DNA of 64,000 nt from assembly GCF_030063205.1 (NCBI RefSeq), contig NZ_JASISQ010000001.1, positions 857,152-921,151 of the forward strand. Reading direction: 5' to 3'. Positions 18,926 through 58,840 of the stretch are shown here, one piece after another. The translations under genes and the position numbers were made by a program. Origin of the DNA: Arthrobacter antibioticus. GTDB taxonomy: Bacteria; Actinomycetota; Actinomycetes; Actinomycetales; Micrococcaceae. Each line of letters opens with the position of its first letter. Position 1 is the stretch's first letter. The notes beneath the pieces were generated by a model. That model saw nothing but the letters and a program-made list of their open reading frames with translations, searched no databases and was not told the DNA's origin.

Positions 18926-19082
18926 CTACTGGCCGAGGGGCCACGAGCGAGCGAAGCGAGGTTGGGGAGGCCGGTAGGCGCTACTGGCCGAGGGGCCACG
19001 AGCGAGCGAGGCGAGGTTGGGGAGGCCGGTAGGCGCTACTGGCCGAGGGGCCACGAGCGAGCGAAGCGAGGTTGGGGAGGCG
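18926..19082. repeat. Tandem array of a 55-bp GC-rich unit (about 2.9 copies)
   Basis: Units begin at 18926, 18981 and 19036; the first two are complete and the third stops at about 19082. Only one base differs among the compared parts (gcgaagcgagg against gcgaggcgagg). Each unit is bounded by an imperfect inverted repeat (ctactggcc ... ggccggtag) and could fold. The array sits 10 bp beyond the stop of the phosphodiesterase gene and 9 bp before the rph start. It shares modules with the arrays at 26374 and 58533. Confidence 0.9.
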
Positions 19083-19092
19083 CTCACAGGGC

Positions 19093-19890
19093 CTAGATCG
19101 TGTAGTGCACGCCGGCTACTGCGGCTGCTACGTCTCCGGCGTAGACCTCACCGGCTTCAGCAACAACCTTGTTTGTGTCAGTCCAGACAGGAATATGGGT
19201 TAACAGCAACCGCTTTACATTGGCCCGGGCAGCAGCCTCACCTGCCCGCTTGCCGCTCAGGTGGACGTCCTTTATATGGTCATCGCGGCCCTCTTCGAAC
19301 GCAGCCTCGCACAGGAACAAATGTGCGTTTTTTGCCGCATCTTCCAGACCTTGGCAGCTGTCAGTGTCCCCTGAGTAAGTCAACACTGTTGTCCGGTCAA
19401 GACCAGTACCGTCATATTCCTTCACCTCAACCCGGAGCGCGTACGCCTCCGGAACAGGATGGTTGACAGCATAAGGGGTTACCGTAAAAGGTCCCACTGT
19501 AACGGGGCTGCGCTCCTGCCAGTTACGGAAATCAAACTCTTCGCGCATGCCAGGATCGAGTTCAAGACCGTAGGCGGTTGCCAACCGATCGGCAGTCTCG
19601 GCGGGGCCCCAGACAGGAATCCTGCCCCTGTGCCAGCCATGGGGATTCCACCGCACGGCCACATGCAGTCCGCACAAATCCATGCAGTGGTCAGGATGCA
19701 AATGGCTAAGGAAAATTGCGTCTATGTCTTCTAGATCCATGTATTTTTGTGCTGCACCGAGAGCGCCGCTACCCAAATCCATGAGCACCCGCCAAGGCCG
19801 AACGCCGTCGTGCGCTGTCAATAAGTAACATGACGCGGGCGATGAGGGGCCTGGAAAAGACCCGCTGCATCCAACAATCGTCAACTTCAT
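19093..19890 (-). CDS. MBL-fold hydrolase, Rv1339-like cyclic nucleotide phosphodiesterase
   Basis: A 265-residue metallo-beta-lactamase-fold protein. The metal motif is HLHPDH, with DTDSC and a late THIPVWTD histidine. It starts [15 protein letters not shown], a pattern seen in actinobacterial homologues next to murI and rph. The M. tuberculosis member (Rv1339, as I recall) is described as an atypical class II cAMP phosphodiesterase, so cAMP hydrolysis is likely but inferred. It overlaps murI by 4 bp. Confidence 0.88.
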
Positions 19891-20927
19891 GTTCGCTCCC
19901 CCGTGCCATTTCCCGGAGATGCCAGTCTGCCCATCGAATCGGCCAAAACAAAATTGGAGACGCGGCCGGTACCAGGCCCTGGTGTAGTTTCTCTTGCAGC
20001 GGCTAGCATGTCGTCCGTGATGCGGGCCAGTGATCCGGTTGGATAGTGAGCCGAGACATGATTAACCTGCTCAACCCCGTGCACCTCGGGTCCCAAGAAT
20101 CGCCTAGCCAACACACCGAAACTTGCAGCATCTCCGGTGCATAAAAATTGATGGGTGGGGGCTGCCGGTGATAACCGCTCAAGGTCATGATTGACCAGTG
20201 CCCGGTACACGTCTTTGGCCGTTTCCTCGGCACTTGAAACAAGTGTGACGGAATCACCCATGACATATGAAATAACACCCGTCAACAGCGGGTAGTGAGT
20301 GCAGCCAAGCACAAGCGTGTCAATCGACGCGGCTTTCAGGGGCGCCAAATACTGCTCTGCCGTGGACAGCAGTTCTGCTCCTGAGGTGACTCCTGACTCC
20401 ACGAACCGAACAAAGTCCGGGCATGCAACGGAGGTGATATCCAGATTTGGGGCGGCCGCGAAGGTATCTTCATAAGCCCGGGAGCCCACTGTTGCAACAG
20501 TGCCAATCACGCCGATCTTCGCTGTCCGGGTGGCCGCAACAGCGCGCCTGACAGCCGGCTGGATCACCTCGATAACAGGAATTCCATAGCGGGCCGTGTA
20601 GCGCTCACGGGCGTCACGAAGAACTGCCGCAGAGGCTGAGTTGCAGGCGATGACAAGCAGCTTCACCCCTGAACCCACAAGTTCATCCATGACACCCAAC
20701 GCATTGGCGCGGACCTCGGCGATGGGAAGTGGACCGTAGGGACCGTTCGCCGTATCGCCAACATAGAGGATCGATTCGTTGGGCAGCTGGTCAATAACCG
20801 CGCGGGCGACCGTCAACCCGCCTACGCCGGAATCAAAAATTCCGATCGGCCTCTCAGCGGCAGCATTCTGATGCGCACCGGCACGCGTTGCCGACGCAGG
20901 GGCTGAACTTCCTGATTTTTCGCTCAT
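19887..20927 (-). CDS. murI: Glutamate racemase
   Basis: A 346-residue racemase making D-glutamate for peptidoglycan. The N-terminal [16 protein letters not shown] and the two catalytic cysteine motifs (IACNSASAA and LGCTHYPLL) are present. The protein is longer than the usual 260-280 residues because of a 25-residue Ala/Ser-rich leader and a C-terminal extension of about 55 residues. It is the first gene of the murI-PDE-rph-rdgB operon. Confidence 0.97.
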
Positions 20928-21000
20928 GATCGTTTCAACAATAGTTTGTTACCCCGTCCATGTGCCCCGTTTGCGCCCAAGAACACACTTTGCGCCCATG

Positions 21001-21036
21001 TTCTCTGAGTTCTTTGAGTTCTTTGAGTTCTCTAAC
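21001..21036. repeat. Microsatellite, four 9-bp units
   Basis: Four tandem 9-mers (ttctctgag, ttctttgag twice, ttctctaac) at 21001-21036, in the gap between murI and the DUF2017 gene and a few bases from the DUF2017 stop (21043). The only differences lie in one T/C position and the last unit. No coding role. Confidence 0.7.
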
Positions 21037-21042
21037 TTTGAC

Positions 21043-21609
21043 TCACTTTTGGCGTTGCAGCGCCATCAACATGGCTTGAACAAGGCTCTCCTGCAGCCAG
21101 GACACAAAGTTGTAAACAAGGCTGAGGTAACTTTCAACGTCGTCCGCGTCAGCCCAGTCCTGGACTTCATGCACCCTCTCAGCGTCCTGTTCATCCCTGA
21201 TGTCCAACCGCTCGGCCAGAACCAATCGGACATCATTCAAGGCCATGGCCCACAGTTTCGCAGCTTCCTCATTCAGAAGCAGCTTCTCGCTGTCCAAACC
21301 CAGTGCGGCGGCCCGCAAGGCACCTATTTTTGTTTCTCGTAGCGAGCGTTCGGTGAGCTGGCGGAACTCAAGGGCACCCTCGTCGTCGTCCATTACCGCG
21401 TTGGGAAGCAGACGCAATAGTGCCGGATCCGCCGGAACTCCAACATCCATGTCCAGCCCGATCAAAGCCGCCAGCGGGTCCTCATGGGCAGGGGTCGCAG
21501 GTTCAAGCATGGTGATGATATCTGCGAAAAGTTTGCGTAGAAGCTCACGCTCAGCAGGCTCAAGGAAGCCGGTGATTCCGCGGCGCCCGGCAGTGAAGGC
21601 TTTAGCCAC
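21043..21609 (-). CDS. DUF2017 domain-containing protein
   Basis: A 188-residue protein with the helical DUF2017 layout ([21 protein letters not shown]; then [23 protein letters not shown]). This actinobacterial family of unknown function is typically encoded just downstream of clpS, as here. The GTG start at 21609 overlaps the clpS stop by 8 bp; a longer in-frame start at 21693 is less likely because it would lie deep inside clpS. A link to ClpS-dependent proteolysis is guilt by association only. Confidence 0.85.
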
Positions 21610-21907
21610 GGGGGCCGCCCTTCTGGACGGTGGCCCACAAACCAAATCCGTGCATCGCCACAGCGTGCGCTTCCATTTTTTCCTTTGCTCCATGGGCCAC
21701 CGCCGATTTTCCCTCGGTGTGTACCTGCAGCATTAATTCCGCTGCCTTTGCCTCTGAATAGCCAAAATAACTTTGGAAGACGTAACTGACGTAGCTCATC
21801 AAATTAACCGGGTCATTCCACACGATTAATTCCCAGGGAATATCCGGGGAGATGAGTTCGCTGGTTGTGACTTCCCGGTCTGTTTCCGGGGCTGTGCTGA
21901 CACTCAT
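21602..21907 (-). CDS. clpS: ATP-dependent Clp protease adapter ClpS
   Basis: A 101-residue adapter that delivers N-degron substrates to ClpC/ClpAP. The conserved segment [22 protein letters not shown] is present, along with the later [18 protein letters not shown]. It is translated in overlap with the DUF2017 gene and is divergent from pncB. A TAGAAT box lies six bases before the ATG, suggesting leaderless mRNA. Confidence 0.96.
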
Positions 21908-21913
21908 GTGTCT

Positions 21914-21919
21914 ATTCTA
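21914..21919 (-). promoter_or_regulatory. Probable -10 box of a leaderless clpS promoter
   Basis: TAGAAT (five of six matches to TATAAT) on the minus strand ends six bases upstream of the clpS ATG, so transcription would begin at or next to the start codon. There is no ribosome-binding sequence in that gap. The matching -35 is weak. Confidence 0.45.
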
Positions 21920-21944
21920 GTGTTGGACTACTAAACTAAGTGCC

Positions 21945-23288
21945 GTGACTACGCCATCAAGCTGGGCCCACCCCCGCACATCATTGTTTACGGATCACTA
22001 CGAGCTGACAATGCTCCAGGCAGCGCTGCACTCGGGTGCGGCGCACCGCCGCAGCGTGTTTGAGGCCTTCGCCAGGCGGCTGCCAGAAGGCCGCAGATAC
22101 GGTGTTGTAGGCGGAACTGGACGGCTGCTTGAAGGATTGGAACATTTTCGTTTTGGCGCAGAAGAACTAAATTTTCTGGCCCAAAACGAGGTCGTCAACG
22201 ATGAAACTTTGGCGTGGTTAGCCGATTTTAAGTTCTCCGGGGACGTCTACGGTTATGCAGAGGGCGAACTTTACTTCCCGAATTCGCCCATTTTGTCCAT
22301 CGAATCATCGTTTGCCGAGGCTTGTATCTTGGAAACCTACGTGCTCTCGATCCTGAACCACGACTCCGCGATCGCCTCCGCCGCCTCACGCATGATTGGT
22401 GCTGCCGGCTCACGGCCCTGCATTGAAATGGGTTCGCGACGCACGCATGAAGAGTCTGCCGTAGCCGCCTCGCGGGCCGCCGTCATTGCCGGCTTTCATA
22501 GCACCTCAAACCTAGAAGCCGGCCTGCGCTACGGCGTCCTGACCCAGGGCACGGCCGCACATTCCTTCACTCTTCTGCACGATTCCGAGGAAGAGGCCTT
22601 CCGCGCCCAACTTGGCTCCATGGGTTCTGGCACCACGCTGCTAGTTGACACCTACGACGTCGAAGCCGCCGTCCGTAAAGCTGTCTCCATTGCCGGTCCC
22701 GCCTTGGGAGGAGTGCGCTTGGACTCCGGCGATCTCTTGGCCCAGGCCAGGGACGTGCGGGCTCTGTTGGATTCGCTGGGGAACACAAACACGCGCATCA
22801 CCGTCACCAGTGATCTTGACGAATATGCCATTGCAGCCCTGGCCGCAGCCCCTGTTGATTCGTACGGGGTTGGGACCTCGCTGGTGACGGGCTCGGGTGC
22901 GCCGACAGCCTCAATGGTGTATAAATTGGTATCCCGCGAGGGTGACGACGGAGAGTTCGTTTCAGTAGCGAAGGCAGCAAAGAACAAGTCAAGCGTGGGC
23001 GGACGGAAGTACGCTTTACGGCGCCTCAATGGCGCCGGAATCGCCGCCAGCGAAGTTGTTGGCATTGGGCACGTGCCTGAAGGTGACAGCAATGATCGGT
23101 TGTTGTTGGAGAAGTTCATGCACCACGGTGAGCTGGTGCCAGGCTGGACCGGGGCCGACGGCGTAGTGCGCGCCACCGCTAGACATAAAGCATCAATGGC
23201 AGAAATGCCCGGAGCAGCACGGCGGCTCCAGCGTGGGGAGCCACTGATCCCCACCGAATACGAACAAGACTTGCCCGCACCAAACTAA
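21945..23288 (+). CDS. pncB: Nicotinate phosphoribosyltransferase
   Basis: A 447-residue NAPRTase that makes nicotinate mononucleotide from nicotinate and PRPP. Visible are the N-terminal DHYELTML, the central ETYVLSILNHDSAIASAA and GSRRTHEESAVAASRAAVIAG, the SGDLL segment, and the C-terminal SVGGRKYALRR. It starts at GTG only 37 bp from the divergent clpS. pncA follows after 12 bp, so the two form a NAD-salvage operon. Confidence 0.96.
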   Translation: MTTPSSWAHPRTSLFTDHYELTMLQAALHSGAAHRRSVFEAFARRLPEGRRYGVVGGTGRLLEGLEHFRFGAEELNFLAQNEVVNDETLAWLADFKFSGDVYGYAEGELYFPNSPILSIESSFAEACILETYVLSILNHDSAIASAASRMIGAAGSRPCIEMGSRRTHEESAVAASRAAVIAGFHSTSNLEAGLRYGVLTQGTAAHSFTLLHDSEEEAFRAQLGSMGSGTTLLVDTYDVEAAVRKAVSIAGPALGGVRLDSGDLLAQARDVRALLDSLGNTNTRITVTSDLDEYAIAALAAAPVDSYGVGTSLVTGSGAPTASMVYKLVSREGDDGEFVSVAKAAKNKSSVGGRKYALRRLNGAGIAASEVVGIGHVPEGDSNDRLLLEKFMHHGELVPGWTGADGVVRATARHKASMAEMPGAARRLQRGEPLIPTEYEQDLPAPN

Positions 23289-23300
23289 AAGGAGTACCCC

Positions 23301-23918
23301 ATGGCCAAGGCCCTAATCATTGTTGACGTACAGAACGACTTCTGCGAGGGCGGTTCATTAGCCGTTCCCGGGGGCGCCGATCTTGCCACTGAGATCAGCG
23401 AGCTGCTAGAAAACGCCACGGACTTTGACTTCGTTGTAGCCACACAGGACTGGCATATAGACCCGGGCACACACTTCTCTGACACCCCGGATTTTGTGGA
23501 CAGCTGGCCGGTGCACTGCACTGCCGGTTCACAAGGAGCGGGACTGCACCGCAACCTGGACACCGAAGACATCGATGCCTATTTCCGCAAGGGCAAGTTT
23601 GATGCCGCATACTCCGGCTTCGACGGGCTCCTGGCTCCCGAGGACGAAGTTGCGGTGGGAGAACGTGAGGCGCACGAATCCGCTGGGGAGGACACCGAGG
23701 CACCCGTGAGTCTGGATGATTGGCTGCGCGAGAACGACGTCGATGACGTTGTGATCGTTGGCATCGCCACCGAACACTGTGTCCGTGCCACAGCAATCGA
23801 CGCCGTCAATGCCGGCTACAACACCACAGTCCTGCGCGATTACGTCAAAGGTATTTCCGACGAGGCCATCGAAGAAGCATTTGAAGAACTCGAAGACGCT
23901 GGTGTTGAGGTCAACTAG
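23301..23918 (+). CDS. pncA: Nicotinamidase (pyrazinamidase)
   Basis: A 205-residue isochorismatase-fold amidase that turns nicotinamide into nicotinate, the substrate of PncB encoded just upstream. The catalytic triad is seen as Asp in VDVQNDF (residue 10), Lys in RKGKFDAAYSGF, and Cys in ATEHCVRATA; TQDWH carries a metal-binding His. A good AAGGAG precedes the ATG. A 20-residue acidic insert (GEREAHESAGEDTEAPVS) makes it slightly longer than the usual enzyme. Confidence 0.96.
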   Translation: MAKALIIVDVQNDFCEGGSLAVPGGADLATEISELLENATDFDFVVATQDWHIDPGTHFSDTPDFVDSWPVHCTAGSQGAGLHRNLDTEDIDAYFRKGKFDAAYSGFDGLLAPEDEVAVGEREAHESAGEDTEAPVSLDDWLRENDVDDVVIVGIATEHCVRATAIDAVNAGYNTTVLRDYVKGISDEAIEEAFEELEDAGVEVN

Positions 23919-23968
23919 CCGCTCCAGGAGCTCAGTAGTCTTCCGCTAACGGCGACGGCGCTGCTGGC

Positions 23969-24001
23969 GACGGCCCCGGCACTGCTGGCACGGGGGCCGT
24001 C
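23969..24001. terminator. Terminator downstream of pncBA
   Basis: Arms gacggcccc (23969-23977) and ggggccgtc (23993-24001) form a 9-bp GC stem with a 15-nt loop, followed by ATTTTTCC on the plus strand. This is a clear intrinsic terminator for pncBA, about 50 bp after the pncA stop. The convergent helicase gene ends at 24015. Confidence 0.8.
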
Positions 24002-24014
24002 ATTTTTCCGGCGA

Positions 24015-25799
24015 CTATTTTCGGCCGATAAACCAGTCTTGGAGCTTCTTCAAGCGTGTTTGCAGCTGGGATTCATTGGCTTGGGCCACGGCCGGTCCGC
24101 CACAGATGCGCCGCAGTTCGCTGTGCACCATGCCATGTGGCATCCCTGAGCGGGCGCTCCAGGCGGAGACATTCTTAGCTAATTCACCACGCAGGTCCAT
24201 GAGCATCCGGTGGTCAACCATCGGCGGAGCTTCCGGCTCGGGTACGGTTTTTTTGCTACGGCGTGTTTGTTGGTCGGCTTGGTGTTGTCGCAGCAGGACG
24301 CCCATTTGTTCAGCATCAAGTAGGCCAGGGATACCAAGGAAGTCCAGCTCATCCTCACTGCCGATGGCACCGCCTGTGCCGAATTCACCGCCGTCGAACA
24401 AGACCCTGTCAAAAGATGCTTGGGATTCTAGTGCCTCAAACTTGAACTTTTCCAAGGTGTCCGAGGCTTTTTCCTCACGGTTGGCCTCGTCCATCTCGGA
24501 GTCTTCCTCGATGAATCCGTCCGGATCCTTGTCAGGCCGGTCAAGGGCGTGATCACGCTCAAGCTCCAGTTGGTTGGCCAATGCCATCAAGTTGGGCACA
24601 GAGGGCAGGAAGATGGACGCAGTTTCGCCTCTTTTACGCGCACGCACAAAACGGCCCACGGCCTGGGCGAAGAACAGGGGCGTTGCCGTTGATGTCGCAT
24701 AGACGCCGACGGCCAAACGTGGCACGTCAACACCTTCGGATACCATCCGCACGGCCACCATCCACCGATTCTCTCCCGCTGAGAAAGCGTCGATCTTATC
24801 CGATGCCTTGCCATCGTCAGACAAAATCACTGTGGGCGCTTCCCCGGTGATCTTTTTTAGTTGCGTCGCATAAGCGCGGGCGTCCTCATGGTCGGTGGCA
24901 ATAACCATTCCACCGGCGTCGGGAACGGCCCGGCGAACCTCAGTGAGTCGCTTGTCTGCGGCAGCCAACACCGAGGGTATCCACTCCCCTACCGGGTTCA
25001 GCGCAGTACGCCACGCTTGCGAGGTGACATCCTTGGTCACTGCATCGCCAAGAGTGGCAGCCATTTCCTCGCCGGCACTGGTGCGCCAGCGCATCTGTCC
25101 GGAATAGGCCATGAACATCACTGGACGGACCACATGGTCCTTGAGCGCTTCGCCATAACCGTACGTGTAATCTGCCTTGGAACGGCGAATCCCATCCCGG
25201 TCCTCGGCATATTCCACGAACGGGATGGCGGCTGTATCGGAGCGGAAAGGTGTTCCTGTCAGCGCCAGGCGCCGCATGGCAGGATCAAATGCCTCCCGGA
25301 TGCCATCACCCCAGGAGAGTGCGTCGCCGCCATGGTGAATTTCATCCAAGATGACAAGGGTTTTAGCGGCCTCGGTTTTGGCCCTGTGCAGAAGGGGTTT
25401 ACTAGCAACCTGCGCGTACGTGACGGCTACGCCAATAAAACCCTTGCCGTGGCGACCGTCTGCGTTTTTGAAGTTGGGGTCGATGGCGATGCCAACCTTC
25501 GCAGCCGCATCGGCCCACTGACGTTTCAGGTGGTCTGTGGGCGTGACGATGGTGACCCTATTAATGGTTCCCCGGGCGATCAGCTGAGTGGCAATATGCA
25601 GGGCGAAGGTGGTTTTTCCTGCCCCAGGGGTTGCTACCGCCAGGAAGTCTCTAGGGCTTTCTTGGAAGTATTTTTCCATGGCCTCGGACTGCCAGGCTCT
25701 TAGCTTTTGGGCCGTTCCCCACGCAGCACGCTCGGGGTACGCCGGAGGCAGCGACGGGCCACCAAACAAAGTCTCCGTCACGAAAGTTCCGCCATCCAA
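24015..25799 (-). CDS. DEAD/DEAH-box (SF2) helicase
   Basis: A 594-residue superfamily 2 helicase. Walker A is ATPGAGKTTFAL (about residue 56), motif II is DEIHHGG, motif III is LTGTPFRSD, and motif VI is QAVGRFVRARKRGE. The C-terminal 150 residues are helical and acidic, with no nuclease motif that I can recognise. The helicase core resembles type I/III restriction-like or UvrB-like enzymes, but no methylase or nuclease gene is near. The DUF3039 gene lies upstream on the same strand. Confidence 0.9.
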   Translation of the reverse strand: MDGGTFVTETLFGGPSLPPAYPERAAWGTAQKLRAWQSEAMEKYFQESPRDFLAVATPGAGKTTFALHIATQLIARGTINRVTIVTPTDHLKRQWADAAAKVGIAIDPNFKNADGRHGKGFIGVAVTYAQVASKPLLHRAKTEAAKTLVILDEIHHGGDALSWGDGIREAFDPAMRRLALTGTPFRSDTAAIPFVEYAEDRDGIRRSKADYTYGYGEALKDHVVRPVMFMAYSGQMRWRTSAGEEMAATLGDAVTKDVTSQAWRTALNPVGEWIPSVLAAADKRLTEVRRAVPDAGGMVIATDHEDARAYATQLKKITGEAPTVILSDDGKASDKIDAFSAGENRWMVAVRMVSEGVDVPRLAVGVYATSTATPLFFAQAVGRFVRARKRGETASIFLPSVPNLMALANQLELERDHALDRPDKDPDGFIEEDSEMDEANREEKASDTLEKFKFEALESQASFDRVLFDGGEFGTGGAIGSEDELDFLGIPGLLDAEQMGVLLRQHQADQQTRRSKKTVPEPEAPPMVDHRMLMDLRGELAKNVSAWSARSGMPHGMVHSELRRICGGPAVAQANESQLQTRLKKLQDWFIGRK

Positions 25800-25885
25800 T
25801 CACTTCTCTCATACGCACGCACCCCTATCCGGGCACGGTAAATCAACGGCTAATGTGCCGTTACAAACAAGATTATTGCCCCAAA

Positions 25886-26215
25886 CTATTTCTTGGGGTT
25901 CTTCGGGCCCTTGCCCTTACCTTTGCCACCTTCTGGCATCAATCCCTCATAGATGGCCTTGCAGTCAGGGCACACGGGGAACTTTTCGGGATCACGCCCA
26001 GGAGTCCAGACCTTGCCGCACAGTGCCACAACCGGGTCACCTGTCAGTGCGGATTCCATGATTTTTTCTTTGCGCACATAGTGCGAGAACCGTTCACTAT
26101 CTCCTGGTTCAACTTCTTGGCGCAATTCCTCGCGCTCAATGACGGCTGTTGAACCGCCGCTGCGCTCAGGATTTCCCAGCGGGTCATTTTCAAAGGGGTC
26201 TGGAGGCAAACTCAT
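25886..26215 (-). CDS. DUF3039 domain-containing protein
   Basis: A 109-residue actinobacterial protein of unknown function. A likely zinc site is formed by His45, Cys66 and the pair Cys82/Cys85 (FPVCPDCKAIYE). The motif ALCGKVWTPGRDPEKFPVCPDCK is typical of DUF3039. The C-terminus is a Gly/Lys tail. The start at 26215 (MSLPPDPF) is preferred over in-frame starts up to 26308. It precedes the helicase gene by 86 bp and may be co-transcribed with it. Confidence 0.88.
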   Translation of the reverse strand: MSLPPDPFENDPLGNPERSGGSTAVIEREELRQEVEPGDSERFSHYVRKEKIMESALTGDPVVALCGKVWTPGRDPEKFPVCPDCKAIYEGLMPEGGKGKGKGPKNPKK

Positions 26216-26323
26216 AAAAACTATTCTAGCGTCATCGCGTTCACGACTCACCGAGGTTCCGATCCTCGGAGCTGTCATTATCTCCAATCTCACGGGGGTT
26301 GCGCACAAGGGTTCGCAGAAAGT

Positions 26324-26371
26324 ACGACGCCGGGAGGAGAGTTAAGTGATTAACTCCCCTCCCGGCGTCGT
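26324..26371 (-). terminator. Long hairpin downstream of nagB
   Basis: Arms 26324-26345 and 26350-26371 are complementary over 22 bp with one mismatch and a 4-nt loop. On the minus strand the stem ends in ACTTTCT. It lies downstream of nagB beyond the repeat array and is probably the nagB terminator. Its strength is supported by the GC-rich base of the stem (acgacgccgggagg). Confidence 0.7.
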
Positions 26372-26373
26372 TC

Positions 26374-26542
26374 CCCAAGTTCTCCCAAACCTCGCAAGCT
26401 CAGCCCTGGACCCTCGAACCCGTGGGCCCACCCAAGTTCTCCCAAACCTCGCAAGCTCAGCCCGGGACCCTCGAACCCGTGGGCCCACCCAAGTTCTCCC
26501 AAACCTCGCAAGCTCAGCCCGGGACCCTCGAACCCGTGGGCC
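26374..26542. repeat. Tandem array of a 57-bp unit (three copies)
   Basis: Units start at 26374, 26431 and 26488 and are nearly identical; the second and third differ from the first at one or two bases (cctgg against ccggg). The last unit ends at the nagB stop codon (26542-26544). Each contains the palindrome gtgggcccac (once per junction) and the module cccaaacctcgc. The array lies between nagB and its terminator hairpin. Modules are shared with arrays at 18926 and 58533. Confidence 0.9.
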
Positions 26543-27324
26543 TAGACGCTCTGCCAGTCTGGCTTATTTTCGTAGGCGTTGCGGTAGCTGGGTGCATCTG
26601 CCAGCTTAGATGCGGCGGCCTCATCAATAATGACTGTCGCGCGGGGGTGGAACTGCAAAATCGAGGCCGGGCAGGAAGCGGATACGGGGCCCTCAACGAA
26701 GTCCCTTACAGCGTCGGCTTTGCCTTCCCCAAAAGCAACAAGAACCAGGTGCCGGGCATCCATAATGGTGCCTAGACCTTGGGTCACCACGTGATGCGGA
26801 ACTTGGTCGATGTTCTCAAAAAACCGTGCATTGTCCTGGCGAGTCTGTTCTGCCAAGGTTTTGATGCGGGTGCGCGAAGCCAGCGAAGAACCAGGCTCGT
26901 TAAAACCGATGTGACCGTTGGTGCCAACGCCCAGAATCTGCAGGTCAATCCCGCCAGCCGCAGCAATGGCATCTTCGTATTGCTTACACGCACTATCAAT
27001 ATCTGCCCCAGCACCATCAGGGCCATGGACGTTAATCGCCGCAACGTCCACACGGTTGGTGAACTCACGCCTGATCACCTCGCGGTAAGACTCAAAGTGT
27101 CCCACGGGCAGGCCCACATACTCATCTAGGGCAAAGCCACGCGTTTGAGCGAAGTTTAGACCCTCTTCATCGTGACGCCGGGCCAGCTCGTCGTAGATCG
27201 GCAGCGGAGAGGAACCGGTGGCCAGGCCAATGACGGCATTGGGCTTAGTGCGCACCAGTGACTCGATGGCGTCAGCCGCCAAGGCCCCAATTTCTTTCCT
27301 GCTTGGGAGGATAATGACCTCCAT
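26542..27324 (-). CDS. nagB: Glucosamine-6-phosphate deaminase
   Basis: A 260-residue deaminase turning glucosamine-6-phosphate into fructose-6-phosphate and ammonia. It has VIGLATGSSPLPIYDEL, FALDEYVGL, DLQILGVGTNGHIGFNEPGSSL and the SRTRIKTL segment of the NagB family. The start at 27324 (MEVIILPS) is the family's usual one; an in-frame start at 27348 is less likely. It works with nagA, which lies about 10 kb away at 36867. A repeat array abuts its 3' end. Confidence 0.97.
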   Translation of the reverse strand: MEVIILPSRKEIGALAADAIESLVRTKPNAVIGLATGSSPLPIYDELARRHDEEGLNFAQTRGFALDEYVGLPVGHFESYREVIRREFTNRVDVAAINVHGPDGAGADIDSACKQYEDAIAAAGGIDLQILGVGTNGHIGFNEPGSSLASRTRIKTLAEQTRQDNARFFENIDQVPHHVVTQGLGTIMDARHLVLVAFGEGKADAVRDFVEGPVSASCPASILQFHPRATVIIDEAAASKLADAPSYRNAYENKPDWQSV

Positions 27325-27420
27325 GAAACACGCTTCCCTTCGCGGCACACCTGTGCCTGTGCAGTTCTCAAGTATCGCTCATTAATTGCTTCAACCTTAG
27401 CTTTTACCCAGCGTCTTCCA

Positions 27421-45406: not shown

Positions 45407-45421
45407 TAGTCAGGGATGGTG

Positions 45422-50605: not shown

Positions 50606-50701
50606 GAGATCTCCATCATTGGGGCGGCCTGCCGTATTCCAGCGGCACACAAGAGGTTAAACAGTTTGGCCGGGTAGACCAGGTGAATGTCACCACAGGG
50701 A

Positions 50702-50730
50702 ATTCTACACGAGATAGAACTTGAAGTTGA
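50702..50730 (-). promoter_or_regulatory. Possible promoter of the atp operon
   Basis: On the minus strand a TAGAAT -10 (50702-50707, five of six matches) has a weak -35 TCAACT (50725-50730) at 17 bp spacing. It lies about 97 bp before the first gene (50605). The -10 is good, the -35 poor. Confidence 0.35.
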
Positions 50731-50768
50731 CGCATAACATCGACAGGTCCCATGCCCCGAGTTTAGTC

Positions 50769-51836: not shown

Positions 51837-53716
51837 GCACCCGCCGCAACGTCGCCGTCGGACTCATCAATGCTGGGGGCCTGCGCCCCGGCCTCGTCAC
51901 GGCAGCGCTGCAACCATAGGGCAAGATCGAGACTCTCCGGGCTGAGCGGTCGAGCATGCGTGTGCGAAATTTTGGCGTGCCCATCGGGGTCCTTAACCTC
52001 GTCATCTCCTGTCAGCTGTTCGTGCAGCTTCTCTGAAGGGCGCAGGCCAGTGATCTTGATCTTGATATCGCGTCCTGACATGGCAATCATGCGTTCTGCC
52101 ACGTCCATGATGCGCACTGGCTCCCCCATGTCCAAGATCAGAACGTCCCCACCGTGGCCGATCGCTCCTGCCTGAATGACAAGTTGGCAAGCCTCCGGAA
52201 TGGTCATAAAAAAACGGGTCACATCGGGGTGCGTGACAGTGACGGGACCGCCGTTATTGATCTGGTCGGTGAATAAGGGAAGCATGGAGCCTCGGCTGCC
52301 TATGACGTTGCCAAACCGGACTGACACGTAGCGCATGCCCGTCTCCCCCGCCATCCACGATGTGAGCTTTTCGGCGGCCCGTTTCGAGTGGCCCAACGCC
52401 GTTGTGGGACTAGCCGCCTTATCGGTGGAAACGTTCACAAAGGTTTCCACGTCCACACTGCGAGCAGCTTGAAGCACGTTCAAGGAACCAATGACGTTAG
52501 TTTTCCAACCCTCTTCGGGGTACATCTGTAGCAGTGGTGCATGCTTGAGCGCGGCCGCATGGAACACTACTTCTGGACGGCGTCTGGCGAAGATGTCATT
52601 CAAGAAGTCCGCATCCCGGATGTCTGCCAACACAATATTCTTATCATCCAGCAGGCCGTGGCCTTCAATAGAGAGCTGAGTATGCTGCAATCCGGATTCA
52701 TCACGGTCAAGCATGATCAGTTCCGCAGGGTCAAAGTTGTGTAACTGGCGGCACAACTCGGAACCAATCGAGCCTCCGGCACCGGTCACCAGAACACGTT
52801 TTCCTCTGACATAGCCGGCGATCTGTTCCACTTGTGTTTCTACAGGGGTGCGGCCAATAAGGTCAGCAACGTCAATCTCTCGGAAATCTGTGAGGCCACC
52901 TTTGCTGTCCCGGTTGGTATCCGGACTTAGCATCTCCTGCAGCGGCGGCAGCACAAGGACTTTCACGCCAAGACCTGAGACACTGTCGGAGATTTCGCGG
53001 ATCCGCTTTGCGCTGATGTGGGCAACTGCAAGGACCACAACAGTTGATCGGGTGCGTTTGATGATCTCAGGGAGGTCGTCTCCACCGCCGAGGACGCCAA
53101 CCGAGCTCAGACGCAGATGCTTTTTAGAGGCGTCATCATCAATTAGTCCAACGGGGACGTAAGGCGATTCAGGGTCCTGAACCATACGGGTGACAAGTGA
53201 ATTACCAAGAAAACCGGCACCATAGATCAAAGTTTTTTGGGCTTCTTCCCCAAAAATTGGTTTGCCTTCAACGTAGAGTCGCTTTGCATAACGCACAGCC
53301 GCCATGGAAAGCGCGGCGAAGGGGAACGCAATAACTGCCACCGAACGGGCAATATGGAGCTCATTGATGAAAACTGACAATAAAATACTTGTCACGACGC
53401 CGACTATTAATGTCACAGCAATCAGCACGCGGGCCTCATGAATACTGCCGAACACATGGCGGCCGCGGTACAAGGCCATGTACCAGCCGGCAATCAGCTG
53501 AGTGGCAACGGCTATAGCAATCAGCAACGCCATGCCGGGGAAGTTAATAAGGTTGACGTCCAGCTCGTAACGCAGCAATACGGCTAGCATCAAGGCGATC
53601 GCCCAACACAACGAATCAAGAATTCCTTGCGACCAAAGCCACAGCCTCGGTTTACGTTCGCCGTCGGTGGAAGTGACAGCGACTTTTGCGTTTGGCTGGG
53701 TGCTTGAGGTATTCAA
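51833..53716 (-). CDS. Membrane-anchored nucleoside-diphosphate-sugar dehydratase/epimerase (FlaA1/CapD-type)
   Basis: A 627-residue protein: four or five N-terminal membrane helices, a CoA-binding-like domain (ILVAVTLIVGV to LIYGAGFLGNSLV), and a C-terminal SDR extended domain with VLVTGAGGSIGSELCRQL. The catalytic region reads STDKAASPTTALGHSKRAAEKL; the expected SDR Tyr is replaced (G-H-S-K), as in FlaA1/PglF proteins. Such enzymes make UDP-4-keto-6-deoxy-HexNAc for glycans. It precedes the WecA-like gene. Confidence 0.9.
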   Translation of the reverse strand: MNTSSTQPNAKVAVTSTDGERKPRLWLWSQGILDSLCWAIALMLAVLLRYELDVNLINFPGMALLIAIAVATQLIAGWYMALYRGRHVFGSIHEARVLIAVTLIVGVVTSILLSVFINELHIARSVAVIAFPFAALSMAAVRYAKRLYVEGKPIFGEEAQKTLIYGAGFLGNSLVTRMVQDPESPYVPVGLIDDDASKKHLRLSSVGVLGGGDDLPEIIKRTRSTVVVLAVAHISAKRIREISDSVSGLGVKVLVLPPLQEMLSPDTNRDSKGGLTDFREIDVADLIGRTPVETQVEQIAGYVRGKRVLVTGAGGSIGSELCRQLHNFDPAELIMLDRDESGLQHTQLSIEGHGLLDDKNIVLADIRDADFLNDIFARRRPEVVFHAAALKHAPLLQMYPEEGWKTNVIGSLNVLQAARSVDVETFVNVSTDKAASPTTALGHSKRAAEKLTSWMAGETGMRYVSVRFGNVIGSRGSMLPLFTDQINNGGPVTVTHPDVTRFFMTIPEACQLVIQAGAIGHGGDVLILDMGEPVRIMDVAERMIAMSGRDIKIKITGLRPSEKLHEQLTGDDEVKDPDGHAKISHTHARPLSPESLDLALWLQRCRDEAGAQAPSIDESDGDVAAGA

Positions 53717-53911
53717 CGTGATTCTTATATCCGTATTCTGCCAAGGTGGTGATTGCTATGGAGCTGTTGTTCACGGCGCAATAGTCCACCGGTCGGCGGC
53801 TGTACTAAAGTAGAAGCTACACAAGAATAGTAATCCCTCCAGATGCTTACTCACGGTTTAGCCGTGCCGGATGCCGGGCAACGCCGCGAGCACCACCCGA
53901 AAGGACTACCC

Positions 53912-54811
53912 TTGATAGACACAGTAGCCGTCGCTGCGCTCACTTTTGATCGGCCGGAGGACGTGCGAACGTTGTTGGGGGCCTTATCAGCTCAAACCCA
54001 CACCCCACATGCCATCGCACTTGTCGATTCAGGTACACAGTCGGTGGAGTCGATTGCGGCACAAGCACCCTCGCCTGTTACCTACGTTCGGTCTTTGGCG
54101 AACTTGGGCGGTGCCGGCGGATTCTCCCTCGCCATCCTAAACGCCATTGCCTCTGGCGCCGACTGGGTCTGGATCATGGACGACGACGCCCACCCGGAAG
54201 ACCCCGCCTGCCTGGCCACCCTGTTGGAGGCCGCCAAAAGCCGCAATTTGGATGTTGTTGTGCCATTGATCGTGGCACCCGGTGAGCCAACCAAGTTATC
54301 TTTTCCATTCCGTATTGACGGTCATCTAACCCACGATCGTTCAGTGGTGGAGCCCTTGGGTTTCATTGACAATGTTGGGCAGTTCTTTAACGGCGCTCTG
54401 ATCCGCACAGACGTTTTCTTCAAGGTTGGGCTTCCGGATCTGCGCCTGTTCATCCGTGGTGATGAAACTGACTTCATGCTTCGACTGCGCCAAGCCAAGG
54501 TGAAGTTTGGCACTGTCACCTCCGTGGCTCTGACCCATCCGGCGGGCTGGGGCGAGGTTCAGGAAGTTCTTGGGGACAGGCTCCATGTGCTTGTTCCGGA
54601 AACCCCGTTCAAGCGCTTTTATTACTACCGCAACCGCGGATTTCTCAGCCGCAAGCACCGCCGCGTGCGCTCCCTGGTGGCCGACGCCGCCGGGTACCCC
54701 CTGTATTTCCTTAAAAAGGGTGACCTTAAAGGTCTGGCCAAATGGGCGCGAACCTACGGCGCCGGCCTGCGGGGACCACACTTCGGCCCCATGAAGGATC
54801 AACAGTTTTGA
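53912..54811 (+). CDS. Family 2 glycosyltransferase (GlfT-like)
   Basis: A 299-residue GT-A glycosyltransferase. The N-terminus DTVAVAALTFDRPEDV is typical; the DXD motif is in WIMDDDAHPED and NLGGAGGFSLAI precedes it. Start is TTG 53912 with GAAAGGA at 53899-53905; an in-frame ATG at 53843 lacks such a site. The next glycosyltransferase begins at an overlapping TTGA. The GGAGGF motif recalls galactofuranosyl and rhamnosyl transferases, but the sugar is not known. Confidence 0.9.
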   Translation: MIDTVAVAALTFDRPEDVRTLLGALSAQTHTPHAIALVDSGTQSVESIAAQAPSPVTYVRSLANLGGAGGFSLAILNAIASGADWVWIMDDDAHPEDPACLATLLEAAKSRNLDVVVPLIVAPGEPTKLSFPFRIDGHLTHDRSVVEPLGFIDNVGQFFNGALIRTDVFFKVGLPDLRLFIRGDETDFMLRLRQAKVKFGTVTSVALTHPAGWGEVQEVLGDRLHVLVPETPFKRFYYYRNRGFLSRKHRRVRSLVADAAGYPLYFLKKGDLKGLAKWARTYGAGLRGPHFGPMKDQQF

Positions 54812-55779
54812 GTTTTGACCGGCGAGATCGCTTTTTCATCGTCATCACCACTTTCAACCGTGTTGACTATTTGAAGGACCTCTTGGCCTCAATTGCTGAG
54901 CTGACCCCGGCCCCGGATGGCGTCATTGTTGTCAATAATGCCAGCACCGACTCGACCAGTTCGGTTGTTGACGCCGCCGTCGAAGAATTTGCGGGGCTCC
55001 CCTCGCCTATTGTGTTGGTCAATCATCAGCTTCCTGAGAACGTTGGTGGGGCTGGAGGATTCTCAGCGGGGGTGGAGCAGGCTTTGGCCCATGGCGCCCA
55101 ATGGATGTGGCTGATGGACGACGACGTCACGTGCGTTCCCGGGGCTATCGGCGCTTTTGGTCCGTGGATGGATAAATACGATGCGCTTGTAGGGCGCCGT
55201 TACGATGCCGCAGGGGAACCTTTTTACTGGCAAAATAATTTCAGCACCTTCCTTGGTTTTCCGCTGCCGGTGCGCGGGGATGTTTTTGAAACCTCCAACG
55301 AATTCGCCACCAACGTTGGTTGCTTCGAGGGAATGCTGTTGCACTCGGACGCCGTTCAAGGCGTAGGTTTGCCGGATCCACGGTTCTTTTTAAACTGGGA
55401 CGACACCATCTACGGGTGGCAAATATCACTTCAGCGCCCAGTTATGTATGTCAATGAGTTTGTGCTGCACAAGGCGCGTACGCAGCGAACCATTGATTTG
55501 GGCATTAGACACCTCAATGACTCCTCTAATCTGAGCCGTTATTATGTGATGCGCAATCGCGGTTTGGTAGGGCAGTACTTGCGTGCCCACGGAAAGTTCA
55601 GTCCAGTCGGATTCGCACTGGGCACAGCCCTGACCGCTGCCAAAGAACTGTTACGTCTGGTGGGGGTTGAAAGGACGCTGCGTGGCAGCGGGAAGCTTCT
55701 TGCCGGCTGGCGTGAATCCCGCAAGATTTTAGCTGACACCGATTTTGAAATCATGGCGCCACTAGCGGAGGAAAAATAG
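54808..55779 (+). CDS. Family 2 glycosyltransferase (GlfT-like)
   Basis: A 323-residue GT-A glycosyltransferase similar to its upstream neighbour: FFIVITTFNRVDYLK, NVGGAGGFSAGV and WLMDDDVTCVPGA. The TTG start at 54808 has AAGGA nine bases before it and overlaps the upstream stop (TTGA). Two tandem GTs with the same motif suggest alternating or sequential glycan extension. Confidence 0.9.
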   Translation: MSFDRRDRFFIVITTFNRVDYLKDLLASIAELTPAPDGVIVVNNASTDSTSSVVDAAVEEFAGLPSPIVLVNHQLPENVGGAGGFSAGVEQALAHGAQWMWLMDDDVTCVPGAIGAFGPWMDKYDALVGRRYDAAGEPFYWQNNFSTFLGFPLPVRGDVFETSNEFATNVGCFEGMLLHSDAVQGVGLPDPRFFLNWDDTIYGWQISLQRPVMYVNEFVLHKARTQRTIDLGIRHLNDSSNLSRYYVMRNRGLVGQYLRAHGKFSPVGFALGTALTAAKELLRLVGVERTLRGSGKLLAGWRESRKILADTDFEIMAPLAEEK

Positions 55780-55780
55780 C

Positions 55781-56794
55781 ATGTCTGGTGATTCCTCCGC
55801 GTTGCGCTGGTTAGTCGTTGGCTCTTCAGGCTTTGTTGGCACTGCCATTGTTGCGCAACTGCGAGAACGTGGTCTGGTTGTTGACACGCTTTCTGCGCCC
55901 AGACTTTCCAGTGAAGCCACAACGGCTCAAGCCCTTATCGATGAAGCTCATGCCATCTGTGATTCTGCGTCAGCGTCAGCTTTTCGCTTACTGTGCAGCG
56001 CATTTGCCAACGTTGACGTGGTGGTCAATGCCGCCGGGCTGGCCACGCCAGGGGATAGCGAATCCCCCTCGTTGACAGGTGCCAATGCCCTGCTTCCGCC
56101 CGTCATAGCACTGGCCGCAAAGACTGCTGGTGTACGGCGTTTTGTGCACGTCAGTAGCGCATCGGTGCAGGGACACCGGAAATTTATTGATGAAACCACC
56201 AGCCGTGCGCCGTTTTCCGCTTATTCGCGCTCGAAGGCGCTCGGAGAAGAAGCACTGGAGGAGTTGGCCAGGGATTCCGCCATCGTGGATGGCGCTTCGG
56301 GGCCCGGAAAAACCTCTTGGGTGAGTGTGCGGGCAACTTCTGTGCAAGGGCCCTCCCGCCCCACAACATTGTCTCTGGTGAAGGTCGCCAGCTCGCCGCT
56401 GTCATCCGTTGCCGCACCGGGCACGGCACCCACGCCAGTGAGCTCAATCAACGCCCTCGCATGGTTTGTGGTGGAAGCCGGTCAGTACCCAGGGACTGTT
56501 CCACCATTGGTCTTGCAACCGTGGGAAGGCTTATCCGTCACGGACGTTTTAGCTGCTGCAGGAGGGCGTAGTCCCCTACGCCTGCCCCCATGGCTGTGCC
56601 ATACGGTCTTGCGCTGCGGATACTTAGCCTCTGGGCTCATCAAGGAACGCCTACACGGCCCCATCAGAAGAGTCGAGTTGATGTGGTTTGGCCAAGTCCA
56701 AGCCCCCGGCTGGGCGGAGACGGTAGGGCTCAGTGCCGAACAGTCCGTGCGCACAGTGCTTGAGCAAGCCCGGACACCTCGCCCCTCGGCTTAG
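55781..56794 (+). CDS. NAD-dependent epimerase/dehydratase family protein
   Basis: A 337-residue extended SDR protein. Rossmann loop VVGSSGFVGTAIVAQL (about residues 11-26), HVSSASVQGH and the catalytic YSRSKALGEE (Tyr and Lys) are visible. It lies 1 bp after the second glycosyltransferase gene. It probably changes a sugar nucleotide or lipid-linked sugar for the same glycan. It converges with the sua5 gene, 15 bp apart. Confidence 0.88.
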   Translation: MSGDSSALRWLVVGSSGFVGTAIVAQLRERGLVVDTLSAPRLSSEATTAQALIDEAHAICDSASASAFRLLCSAFANVDVVVNAAGLATPGDSESPSLTGANALLPPVIALAAKTAGVRRFVHVSSASVQGHRKFIDETTSRAPFSAYSRSKALGEEALEELARDSAIVDGASGPGKTSWVSVRATSVQGPSRPTTLSLVKVASSPLSSVAAPGTAPTPVSSINALAWFVVEAGQYPGTVPPLVLQPWEGLSVTDVLAAAGGRSPLRLPPWLCHTVLRCGYLASGLIKERLHGPIRRVELMWFGQVQAPGWAETVGLSAEQSVRTVLEQARTPRPSA

Positions 56795-56809
56795 CTCCAT
56801 CAGTCCGGT

Positions 56810-57586
56810 TTACTCGGCAGGGTCCTTGATTTCTTCAACTTCATCGACGGCAGGAACAGTGGTTTCGGCGGCCTCCGCAGGCTGGCTCTTGGTGAGATTT
56901 ACCGGAGACCACATTTGCGGCTCTGCCTCGGCTCCAAGCGCACTGGGAATCATACGCTGGATTTCCGCCAGTGAAATGGCACCCTCACGGACCACTCGCA
57001 GGCGTAGGCCCGTGGCGTCGACAATAGTGGAGGGAATCCCAGTAGTGCCTTCCTCTGGCCGGAAGCCACCTTCCAAATACACCTCAACGGCTTCAGAAAG
57101 CTGCGCACGCGCCTCAGATCCGGTCTGCGCGGCGGGCTGGCCGGTCCTATTGGCACTGGAAACGGCCAAGGGCCCGGTAATGGTGAGCAGGTCAAGGGCC
57201 AGCTGGTCATCTGGGACACGCAGTGCAACGGTTCCCACTGTGTCACCAAGATCCCAAGTCAGTGTTGGTTGAGCGTGAAAGATCAGGGTCAGCGGCCCTG
57301 GCCAGTACTTCTCAGCGAGCTTGCGTGCATCGTCGGAGATTTCAACGGCCAGACCGTCCATGGTGCCGATGCGAGGTATAAGCACAGGCGGTGGCATGTT
57401 CCGTCCACGGCCTTTGGCTGCAAGCAGGGTCGCCACTGCCTGTGGCGAGAAAGCATCCGCGGCAATGCCGTAGACGGTGTCCGTGGGCATGACGATGACC
57501 TGCTTGGCAGCTATTGCCTTCGCCGCATGGGCCAGACCTTCAGCGCGCTGGGCTTCATTGGTGCAGTTATAAGAAGTGGTACTCAC
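56810..57586 (-). CDS. L-threonylcarbamoyladenylate synthase (Sua5/YrdC)
   Basis: A 258-residue enzyme for the t6A tRNA modification. The YrdC fold shows VIVMPTDTVYGIAADAFS, KGRGRNMPPPVLI and GPLAVSSANRTGQPA. The C-terminal 50 residues are an extra acidic tail, not a complete Sua5 domain. It is the downstream gene of prfA-prmC, a conserved neighbour. Confidence 0.95.
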   Translation of the reverse strand: MSTTSYNCTNEAQRAEGLAHAAKAIAAKQVIVMPTDTVYGIAADAFSPQAVATLLAAKGRGRNMPPPVLIPRIGTMDGLAVEISDDARKLAEKYWPGPLTLIFHAQPTLTWDLGDTVGTVALRVPDDQLALDLLTITGPLAVSSANRTGQPAAQTGSEARAQLSEAVEVYLEGGFRPEEGTTGIPSTIVDATGLRLRVVREGAISLAEIQRMIPSALGAEAEPQMWSPVNLTKSQPAEAAETTVPAVDEVEEIKDPAE

Positions 57587-57658
57587 AGACTCATTCTTTC
57601 ATCACGGCGTCCATGGAGTTGAACGCGTCCAGCCAATCACAAATTGGTACTTGGGAAT

Positions 57659-58840
57659 TTAGCAGCGGTATCCGCTGGTTGCTCTGTCCCGCCCGGTCAG
57701 ATCTTGGTGGGAACGAACATTCTCCCAGTGTCCGCTTTGCTTTAGCAGCTGGGAGATTTGTTCGCCCTGCACTTCAGCGTGCTCCATAACAAAGTATCCT
57801 CCCGGACGTAAAAGACGTGCTGCCGTTTCGGCGGCTGCCGCGGGAATTTCCATACCGTCGGCTCCTCCACCATAAAGTGCCATATGGGGATCGTGTAAGC
57901 GCACTTCAATATCCCGCGGGATCGCATCAGCAGGGATGTAGGGCGGGTTTGAAACAACCACGTCCACTAAGGCGTTCAGCTCTACAAAAGCGTCGCGCAT
58001 ATCCCCGCGAATCAGGACTGCTCCGGTGCCAGCAAGATTTCGCTGCGCCCATGGATAAGCCTCATCGCTGAGCTCTACAGCATAAACCCGGGTACCGGCT
58101 ACCTCAGTCGCCATAGCAGCGGCGATTGCCCCCGAACCTGTGCCGAGGTCGACGGCGAGCAGTTCAGACTTGTCGGCACGTTCCTGAGACATGTGTGTTA
58201 AAACGTCGATGGCCAGCTGAACCACTGACTCGGTTTCAGGCCTGGGCACAAAAACACCCTTCCCCACCGCCAACTCCAGGTGCCTAAAATAGGCAACTCC
58301 CGTGATGTGCTGCAACGGTTCCCGCGCTTCACGGCGAGCAATGAGAGCGTCGTAACCAGCAGGTACTACAGCTGTACCAAATAACATTGCAGCTACTTCA
58401 CCGCGGCTTACCCCCAGCAAGTGAGCGGCCAGAAGTTGCGCGTCCACGGCTGGAGAAGGGACGCCCGCCGCGCCGAGAATCTGCGTTGCCGCGTTCACGG
58501 CATCTGCCAACCGAGTTTCAGGGAGGGCGTGGGTGGGCCCACGTTCGCCCGGTTCCGAAGACCCTGGGCCCCCGCGCCCGAGGGCCCCGGGCCCGAGGGC
58601 CCCGGGCACTGACGCGCCAGCGTCAGGGTTTGGGACGGCGCGGGTGGGCCCACGTTCGCCCGGTTCCGAAGACCCTGGGCCCCCGCGCCCGAGGGCCCCG
58701 GGCACTGACGCGCCAGCGTCAGGGTTTGGGACGGCGCGGGTGGGCCCACGTTCGCCCGGTTCCGAAGAAATCGCGCCAGCGTCAGGGTTTGGGAGGGCGT
58801 GGGGACTAGTCGCCAAGGGCGTCCAATCGGGACTGCTCAT
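57659..58840 (-). CDS. prmC: Peptide chain release factor N5-glutamine methyltransferase (PrmC/HemK) with repeat-encoded N-terminal extension
   Basis: The enzymatic part is a normal HemK methyltransferase: helical N-terminal domain from about residue 111 ([33 protein letters not shown]), the [11 protein letters not shown]-binding loop, and the catalytic NPPYIP motif. It methylates the GGQ Gln of the prfA product upstream. The first 110 residues are repetitive Pro/Gly/Ala/Ser/Arg linker encoded by a tandem array (58533-58802). ATG 58840 overlaps the 3' end of prfA by 35 bp. Alternative starts without the extension are TTG 58510 and GTG 58498. Neither has a good ribosome site; the true start is uncertain. 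Confidence 0.9.
58533..58802. repeat. Tandem GC-rich array inside prmC (units 111, 96 and 63 bp)
   Basis: Units begin at 58533, 58644 and 58740, each with gtgggcccacgttcgcccgg at the start and ccagcgtcagggtttggga at the end. The first has an extra 15-bp duplication; the third lacks 33 bp. All lengths are multiples of 3, so the prmC frame is not broken. Each full unit holds a 7-bp hairpin ctgacgc-gcca-gcgtcag. The array ends 4 bp beyond the prfA stop codon (58806). Modules match the 26374 array and partly the 18926 array. Confidence 0.9.

Follow-up and report, generated by a model that had tools for sequence, protein, structure and literature searches.

Repetitive palindromes near gene ends have been argued over for a long time, as parasites by some and as 3'-end regulators by others. 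Two further kinds of bacterial repeat invite comparison with them: the mycobacterial interspersed repetitive unit (MIRU)/variable-number tandem repeat (VNTR) loci of mycobacteria, which are intergenic tandem arrays of about 50–100 bp that vary between strains, and the attC sites of integrons, imperfect palindromes with conserved extrahelical bases and the end motifs RYYYAAC and GTTRRRY. The closest described systems are the repetitive extragenic palindromes (REPs), among them the GTAG REPs (the REP/BIME elements of Escherichia coli, with their RAYT transposases) and the CGTC REPs and RPE. Here we compare with these systems three tandem arrays found in a 64,000-nucleotide stretch of the Arthrobacter antibioticus genome (assembly GCF_030063205.1, contig NZ_JASISQ010000001.1, positions 857,152 to 921,151 of the forward strand), hereafter called the window. 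Arrays 2 and 3 belong to one structured element, which we call B; array 1 belongs to a 55-bp sister type, A, a separate subfamily whose kinship with B is weak. We think it fairly probable that B is a REP/RPE-like palindromic selfish element of the Micrococcaceae, without the usual transposase, that docks at stop codons and grows head to tail. As read from sequence, it has a defined architecture, a register with stop codons, a patchy presence, tandem dynamics and in-frame copies, and its arrays are nearly uniform inside and different between sites.

Three tandem arrays, two of one kind

Tandem Repeats Finder (TRF) places array 1 at 18926–19081 (period 55, 2.8 copies, 98% matches, score 305), array 2 at 26374–26542 (period 57, 3.0 copies, 99% matches, score 331) and array 3 at 58585–58768 (period 96, 1.9 copies, 98% matches, a 15-bp sub-repeat, score 361). 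Across 20 first-order Markov copies of the window no score exceeds 58, and the three arrays are real and far beyond chance. With TRF and BLAST against its own genome, array 1 (18926..19082, minus strand) resolves into about 2.8 head-to-tail 55-bp units of subfamily A, with the sense strand TAG-CGCCTACCGGCCTCCCCAACCTCGCTTCGCTCG..GGCCCCTCGGCCAG. Array 2 (26374..26542, plus strand) consists of three 57-bp units of subfamily B, joined head to tail and inverted with respect to nagB, and array 3 (58533..58805, minus strand) of B-type composite units, 96 and 111 bp long, whose inner hairpins are of more than one kind; both rest on TRF and on R1, our covariance model of element B. All three lie against a TAG stop codon on the minus strand (19093–19095, 26542–26544 and 58806–58808), at distances of about 10, 0 and 0 bp.

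The original prediction, made from the window alone, had placed three arrays at these coordinates and just beyond these stops, and in this it was correct, with two qualifications: array 2 has the opposite orientation, its 3' end and not its foot meeting the nagB stop, and array 3, which begins at the first base past the prfA stop, also lies inside the prmC reading frame and is open in that frame. Its proposal that the arrays share modules and form one family holds for arrays 2 and 3, which have 22 8-mers in common and a longest common word of 13 bp, a likeness reached by 1 of 500 resampled unit pairs. For array 1 the sharing inside the window stays within chance, with 3 8-mers in common with array 2 (reached by 64 of 500 resampled pairs) and none with array 3. 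When the three arrays were scored with R1, filters off, the matches in array 2 were at 26424–26489 (E 2.7e-13), 26490–26538 (E 2e-8) and 26377–26423 (E 6.6e-6), and those in array 3 at 58739–58808 (E 8.2e-5), 58565–58644 (E 0.25) and 58675–58734 (E 0.8); array 1 gave only a weak match (E = 0.086).

Architecture and covariation of element B

In its sense orientation element B runs stop-TCCCCA, variable stem, T, CCC, variable stem, loop TCGCAAGCTC, GGG, bulge nCCCTC, CG and TGGGCCCA, and forms an imperfect palindrome, mostly of 55–66 bp, with a two-part stem and a loop of about 10 nt. The pairing scheme, named by hand on a MAFFT alignment of 12 B units, begins with an outer CCCA/TGGG stem. Inside it come a 5-bp stem, variable in four pairs, and a CG bulge on the 3' side, then the conserved 3' internal loop nCCCTC, the CCC/GGG stem, a variable stem of 4 bp and the conserved loop; the variable stems pair across about 40 bp. 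Among the 12 units 88% of cells are paired, and 27 cells are double-changed, compared with 8.9 in shuffled alignments (none of 500 reaches the real value) and at most 6 when the scheme is slid. For 117 distinct rows, an alignment that leans towards the model because it was fitted to it, 93.5% of cells are paired and 282 are double-changed, against 84.9 after shuffling and at most 67 when slid. RNAalifold alone retains the variable 5-bp stem but pairs other parts of the unit differently; 4 of its 14 pairs are double-changed.

Wobble pairs were counted in 60 non-redundant rows. In the covarying helices G-U and A-C cells number 8 vs 8 and 5 vs 20, at the constant stem pairs 20 vs 2, and in a control of eight tRNAs 14 vs 0. 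The outcome is mixed, so we do not use it to prove action at the level of RNA or DNA.

Register with stop codons

In G038, a second genome of the same species (loci, contigs and genomes bear our own numbers, beginning with L, C and G), R1 matches 20 distinct sites at E ≤ 0.01; at one, L286, the foot was located by its sequence. At 15 of the 20 the foot codon is the stop of a frame of at least 184 codons (14 TAG, 1 TAA), a count that leans towards the claim because R1 contains TAG columns. One more site (L177) has a TAG ending a frame of only 15 codons and was not counted, and four have no stop at the foot. In a wider set of 83 first-of-array loci from 22 genomes, chosen by us and judged by a strict open reading frame (ORF) rule of our own making, the register is exact in 50 (TAG 42, TAA 7, TGA 1), a number that leans the same way because these loci are the better-scoring ones; at least one of the 50 (L147) lies within a larger composite element and may be spurious. 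Among the other 33 loci, 10 have a stop at another distance and 23 gave no call, and a relaxed look adds L055, L079, L090 and L093 to those in register. The stops of 220 background genes, drawn from G038 and the window only, are TGA 76, TAG 75 and TAA 69, and against this own-species background the 50 register stops differ with P 9e-11 for TAG and 2e-7 for TGA (Fisher).

Outside the genus, 16 places were inspected by eye, frames unchecked. Seven have a stop at the foot (TGA in L305, L319 and L321, TAA in L317, TAG in L318, L322 and L323) and nine do not (L303, L304, L306, L314 twice, L320, L324, L325 and L326), with no preference for TAG. An annotated record has the element past panC beginning 20 bases beyond the stop. 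One gene end (..SEGVKHL, TGA) carries the element directly at its stop in another genus (L321), and in the window genome (L066) the element stands 33 nt beyond the same gene end, where it seems to be in frame close to the start of the following ORF. The genes that follow elements are co-directional in 29 and convergent in 19 of 48 cases, against 152 and 124 in the background. Convergent genes are not in excess, and we reject a terminator placed at operon ends. At least one copy (L065/L167) has TTTTT within about 10 bases after the element.

Copies in the genome and taxonomic range

In the 3.79-Mb genome from which the window comes, BLAST with array 1 finds 55-bp arrays on contigs C1, C11, C14 and C16 and a single copy (L009), and BLAST with array 2 finds 57–58-bp arrays on C1, C11, C14, C15 and C17; TRF gives 94–100% matches within these arrays, which are unlike one another. 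R1 matches at least 48 places in this genome at E ≤ 10, with E-values down to 3e-16, and more copies may exist because 150 of 2500 candidates were scored; in G038 it has 38 matches at E ≤ 1. Sites with one matched unit also occur (L009, L093, L097).

R1 matches are present in all 22 genomes of the genus (own genome included) and in none of 2 other genomes of the family or 14 others of the order, where by genus we mean the group, set by prfA identity, of Arthrobacter psychrochitiniphilus, Arthrobacter sp. 35W, H35-D1, ERGS1:01 and Specibacter cremeus. In two larger samples, run with stricter filters, the model matched 37 of 149 Micrococcaceae genomes, in 11 of 32 genera, and 7 of 248 genomes of the order, all 7 of them Micrococcaceae; judged by their order in the sample, 229 of the 248 lie outside that family. 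Identical 64-mers stand at separate places in two genomes (5 in G010, 2 in G074).

Some B copies sit within a bigger composite repeat whose outer inverted repeat is specific to the locus (L084, L088, L104, L115, L111, L147, L108, L128 and L114). These lie mostly away from clear gene stops, and words such as TTTTTTGTAG and GGCCGCCCGCGGCC, or close variants, are common to L084, L104, L111 and L115. The 754-kb record NZ_CP012477.1 of Arthrobacter sp. ERGS1:01, called a plasmid, carries panC, pyrE and several elements. A search of plasmids with array L026 matched one Arthrobacter megaplasmid, and a phage collection gave no match to the same array, a single diverged query that would miss distant copies in either search; within that limit we reject a phage origin.

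No Rfam 15 family credibly matches the arrays of 13 loci searched at E ≤ 1 or of 20 further loci searched at the gathering score, and we reject a known structured RNA; two weak microRNA matches fall on a separate palindrome beside array 2. Rfam riboswitch families match at two loci, ZTP at L030 (486–573, minus) and TPP at L098 (101–222, minus).

Filled and empty sites

Among 23 genomes of the genus, 11 (two of them of one species) carry the element directly after the prfA stop, which is TAG in 8, TGA in 2 and TAA in 1; in the 12 without it the stop is TGA in 8, TAG in 3 and TAA in 1. The inner hairpins at this site vary from species to species, and some of them form long, near-perfect palindromes. 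When presence of the element is mapped on a prfA tree that includes three outgroups, 6 changes are required, of which well-supported branches force at least 5. Among 80 named prfA loci the element occurs in 4, all in this Arthrobacter/Specibacter group. One of the four is a record labelled Sporosarcina beigongshangi (L206, NZ_JADHDY010000006.1), whose prfA is 95% identical to the Arthrobacter query; it is probably a misnamed genome. At pstB, inspected by eye in 23 genomes, 7 sites are clearly filled and 2 are degenerate (L337, L338); we use this count in place of an automatic rule that flagged 9 of 23, with one false positive (L349) and one site missed (L348).

The arrays also change within the species. 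At one site the window genome has 2.2 copies and G038 four units; at another the window genome has 6.2 and 2.6 copies around a gap and G038 one full and one partial unit. Between the same two genomes one unit has been lost between short direct repeats, and one inner hairpin has been lost. At the 3' end of groEL (L285 vs L169) the whole region is replaced: one of two same-species strains has about 280 bp with a hairpin element and the other about 1050 bp of other sequence. Substitutions common to two units of one array (L150/L051, L151/L053) represent concerted change. The two marks of a mobile element found here are sites both filled and empty (prfA, pstB and a helicase loop) and identical copies elsewhere in a genome (G010, G074).

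Copies in coding sequence

At the overlapping prfA–prmC pair, 10 of the 11 occupied genomes keep the prmC frame open through the element, back to an in-frame start that overlaps prfA and is GTG in some genomes and TTG in others, including the window genome. The one genome that departs from this (L192) has, in addition, an ambiguous residue where prfA ends. In two genomes (L188, L202) the array and the conserved PrmC region are not separated by any ATG, GTG or TTG, and on this ground the array is probably translated there.

A second coding site is an annotated DEAD/DEAH helicase gene of ERGS1:01, which contains the element. Three of 23 orthologues carry it in frame at one and the same loop (IVPTGSQ.SQARSGSLAGVGPS or a like sequence), and three others (L358, L363, L364) have a different repeat, GGTCTCGACAAGCTCGACCACCGG and like words, in frame in that loop, a docking place shared by two repeat families. 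The matched stretch is 53–64 residues long with the element, 46–65 with the GGTCTCGACAAGCTCGACCACCGG-type repeat and 36–51 in the other 17. A second large protein, in G016, has a similar peptide (L139). Lhr and HrpA are the presumptive names of these helicases. When 96 loci were scanned loosely for reading frames that continue through the element, only L108, L118 and L139 are sense and coding-like on both sides; the other rows, mostly antisense or one-sided, were not used.

Host genes around the arrays

Array 3 has its foot on the stop (58806–58808) of prfA, peptide chain release factor 1 (58806..59879, minus strand; Pfam PCRF and RF-1). The prmC reading frame (57659..58816, minus) is open back through the array to the TTG at 58816; the next in-frame ATG is at 58840 (starts from locus L181). 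Pfam places PrmC_N and methyltransferase families on 57659–58522, the PrmC_N domain starting only past the array. Array 2 abuts with its 3' end the TAG of a nagB-like glucosamine-6-phosphate isomerase gene (26542..27348, minus; Pfam Glucosamine_iso), and at its foot adjoins a separate palindrome, a terminator-like hairpin read in the sequence (26324..26371, no strand assigned).

Array 1 lies about 10 bp past the TAG of a gene of the metallo-beta-lactamase fold, phosphodiesterase-like (19093..19890, minus; Pfam Lactamase_B_2). On its other side is rph, RNase PH (18176..18916, minus; Pfam RNase_PH), where the array ends at TAGGCTTAGTCCATG, a −10-like hexamer plus a start codon, a putative rph promoter. 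Type A arrays (window 18914–18928; L006, L009, L010, L012) finish on TAGGCTTAG or TACGCTTAG, with an ATG or GTG start a few bases further on, and this ending looks like the −10 box of a leaderless promoter built by the last unit. Elsewhere in the window TRF finds short tandem repeats of 9, 18 and 27 bp at 61288–61447.

A probable selfish element and its rivals

If element B is selfish, a DNA hairpin would spread, moved by an enzyme, and the stop codon would be the landing place that survives selection, since the gene stays intact. Protein loops would be harmless in the same way where the length of the element keeps the frame. Tandem growth and loss would come from replication slippage between short direct repeats, and effects on the host gene, at the mRNA 3' end or in translation, would be secondary. 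A more specific form of this proposal, which we offer tentatively and consider less likely than not, is a mobile palindrome that recognises a stop-like trinucleotide followed by TC, spreads without a known transposase, can be read in frame at overlapping genes and in protein loops, and uses gene ends and junctions as docking sites throughout the family. Of what the original prediction had said about such an element, the preference for gene 3' ends and the expansion by tandem duplication are borne out by the register counts and by the copy numbers that differ within the species; the check it had named also succeeded, the genome containing many more copies, most of whose sites are at stops. Its "REP-like or RNA-end element" survives in the first half, the RNA-end reading not being favoured over a selfish element, and an extragenic location is not a rule because some copies lie inside genes.

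Several observations tell against a selfish element. Clean-footprint insertion at a stop codon was not seen among the filled and empty pairs compared, which are not close enough relatives for it, and in the two same-species genomes the element differences examined are internal gains and losses, the groEL site excepted. Units from one genome are no more alike (mean 0.799, 135 pairs) than units from different genomes (0.803, 2498 pairs), which gives no hint of a recent burst across the genome, and we reject one. Presence at prfA is somewhat clustered on the tree (24–33 of 500 shuffles need as few changes), so that part of it is inherited, and the identical copies in G010 and G074, nested in other repeats, may have travelled with them. 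The Y1 transposase family PF01797, the only transposase family searched, has no match in the own genome; of the 23 genus genomes 2 have one, and among 14 control genomes the search is positive in 5; mobilisation of the RAYT/IS200 kind is rejected. R1 has TAG columns at 3 of its 64 positions, and by one measure of covariation, the count of pairs that show a double change, the real alignments do not stand above shuffled ones (reached by 39 of 500 for the 12 units and 409 of 500 for the 117 rows). The conserved loop and bulge sequences, for their part, would also be compatible with a selected function.

The main alternative, which we consider unlikely and yet take seriously, is that the element is a selected RNA element at gene 3' ends, an mRNA hairpin serving as terminator, exonuclease barrier or translation brake with a loop that binds a factor. 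It would account for an orientation and a spacing from the stop that are fixed at most sites in one genome, for a conserved unpaired loop and bulge between covarying stems, and for the excess of G-U over A-C at constant pairs, which is as expected of RNA; in addition, E. coli REPs no more than 15 nt from a stop reportedly stall ribosomes and lower translation (PMC12306157). It sits poorly with stops that are filled in some genomes and empty in others, with downstream genes that are not preferentially convergent, with array 3 lying in frame inside the overlapping prfA–prmC pair and other copies lying inside genes, and with covarying helices that, unlike the tRNAs, do not favour G-U.

The head-to-tail arrays of 55–58 bp, their near-identical units and the copy differences between strains are also what MIRU-like minisatellites would give, that is, local tandem duplication of gene-end sequence with no common dispersed element. 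Such an origin is largely refuted, and we hold it to be very improbable, given that ends, loop, bulge and pairing scheme are common to units at unrelated genes, that single-unit sites exist and that the family spans 11 genera. Still less probable are arrays of binding sites for a DNA-binding protein reading TGGGCCCA and GGGnCCC: these are among the most constant parts of the unit, but such sites would need neither long covarying stems nor any register with a stop codon. That GC-rich repeats resemble one another by chance, the least credible explanation of all, finds some room in the few 8-mers shared by arrays 1 and 2; for arrays 2 and 3, whose likeness exceeds 499 of 500 resampled pairs, and with R1 matches as strong as those in the own genome, it is refuted.

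The family offers sharp handles on the argument between parasites and regulators: an exact stop register, stops filled and empty in sister species, arrays changing within a species and copies inside proteins. It adds to the Actinobacteria a repeat family without the usual transposase and points to another mover, and its arrays are ready VNTR markers for Arthrobacter-like bacteria.

Comparison with known systems

Like MIRU/VNTR loci, B forms strain-variable tandem arrays; its unit, however, is a covarying palindrome with its foot on a stop codon. With integron attC sites it has in common an imperfect palindrome directly past a stop codon, but the B consensus lacks both attC end motifs, and no cassette array was seen, none having been searched for. 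VNTRs are on record for Renibacterium (PMC4029610), and in the open-licence literature, at the level of titles and abstract openings, we found no description of the present family.

Like B, GTAG REPs are short palindromes that occur in numerous copies, frequently close to gene 3' ends, with TAG at the foot. Unlike them, B has no constant GTAG tetranucleotide: the base before TAG varies, the foot being a stop followed by TCCCC, and type A units likewise have TAG or TAC preceded by various bases. GTAG REPs are also shorter (20–40 bp, against mostly 55–66 bp), their pairs are mostly inverted and not head to tail, and they use a Y1/RAYT transposase, of which 21 of 23 genus genomes here show no PF01797 match.

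The CGTC REPs and RPE (PMC3733652) resemble B as dispersed palindromes with variable stems and some in-frame copies in genes, including replication and repair genes; they have no dedicated transposase, and for B the search covered PF01797. In-frame copies of B occur likewise in the helicase loop (3 of 23), in prmC (10 of 11) and at L139, and the B unit ends in CCA, as in CGTC REPs, with CGTC at the foot in a minority of copies (L118, L146, L059). They differ in that B has a bulged two-part stem within 55–66 bp in place of stems of 8–9 bp with loops of 4–5 nt, and in that its foot is usually a stop codon. B arrays run head to tail, whereas that paper calls head-tail dimers negligible for CGTC repeats, although it notes that large REP clusters can show tandem reiteration; its main text nowhere uses the word Actinobacteria. 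Because several of the defining features of either group are absent we file the element under neither, and the GTAG and CGTC REPs together are its nearest known class.

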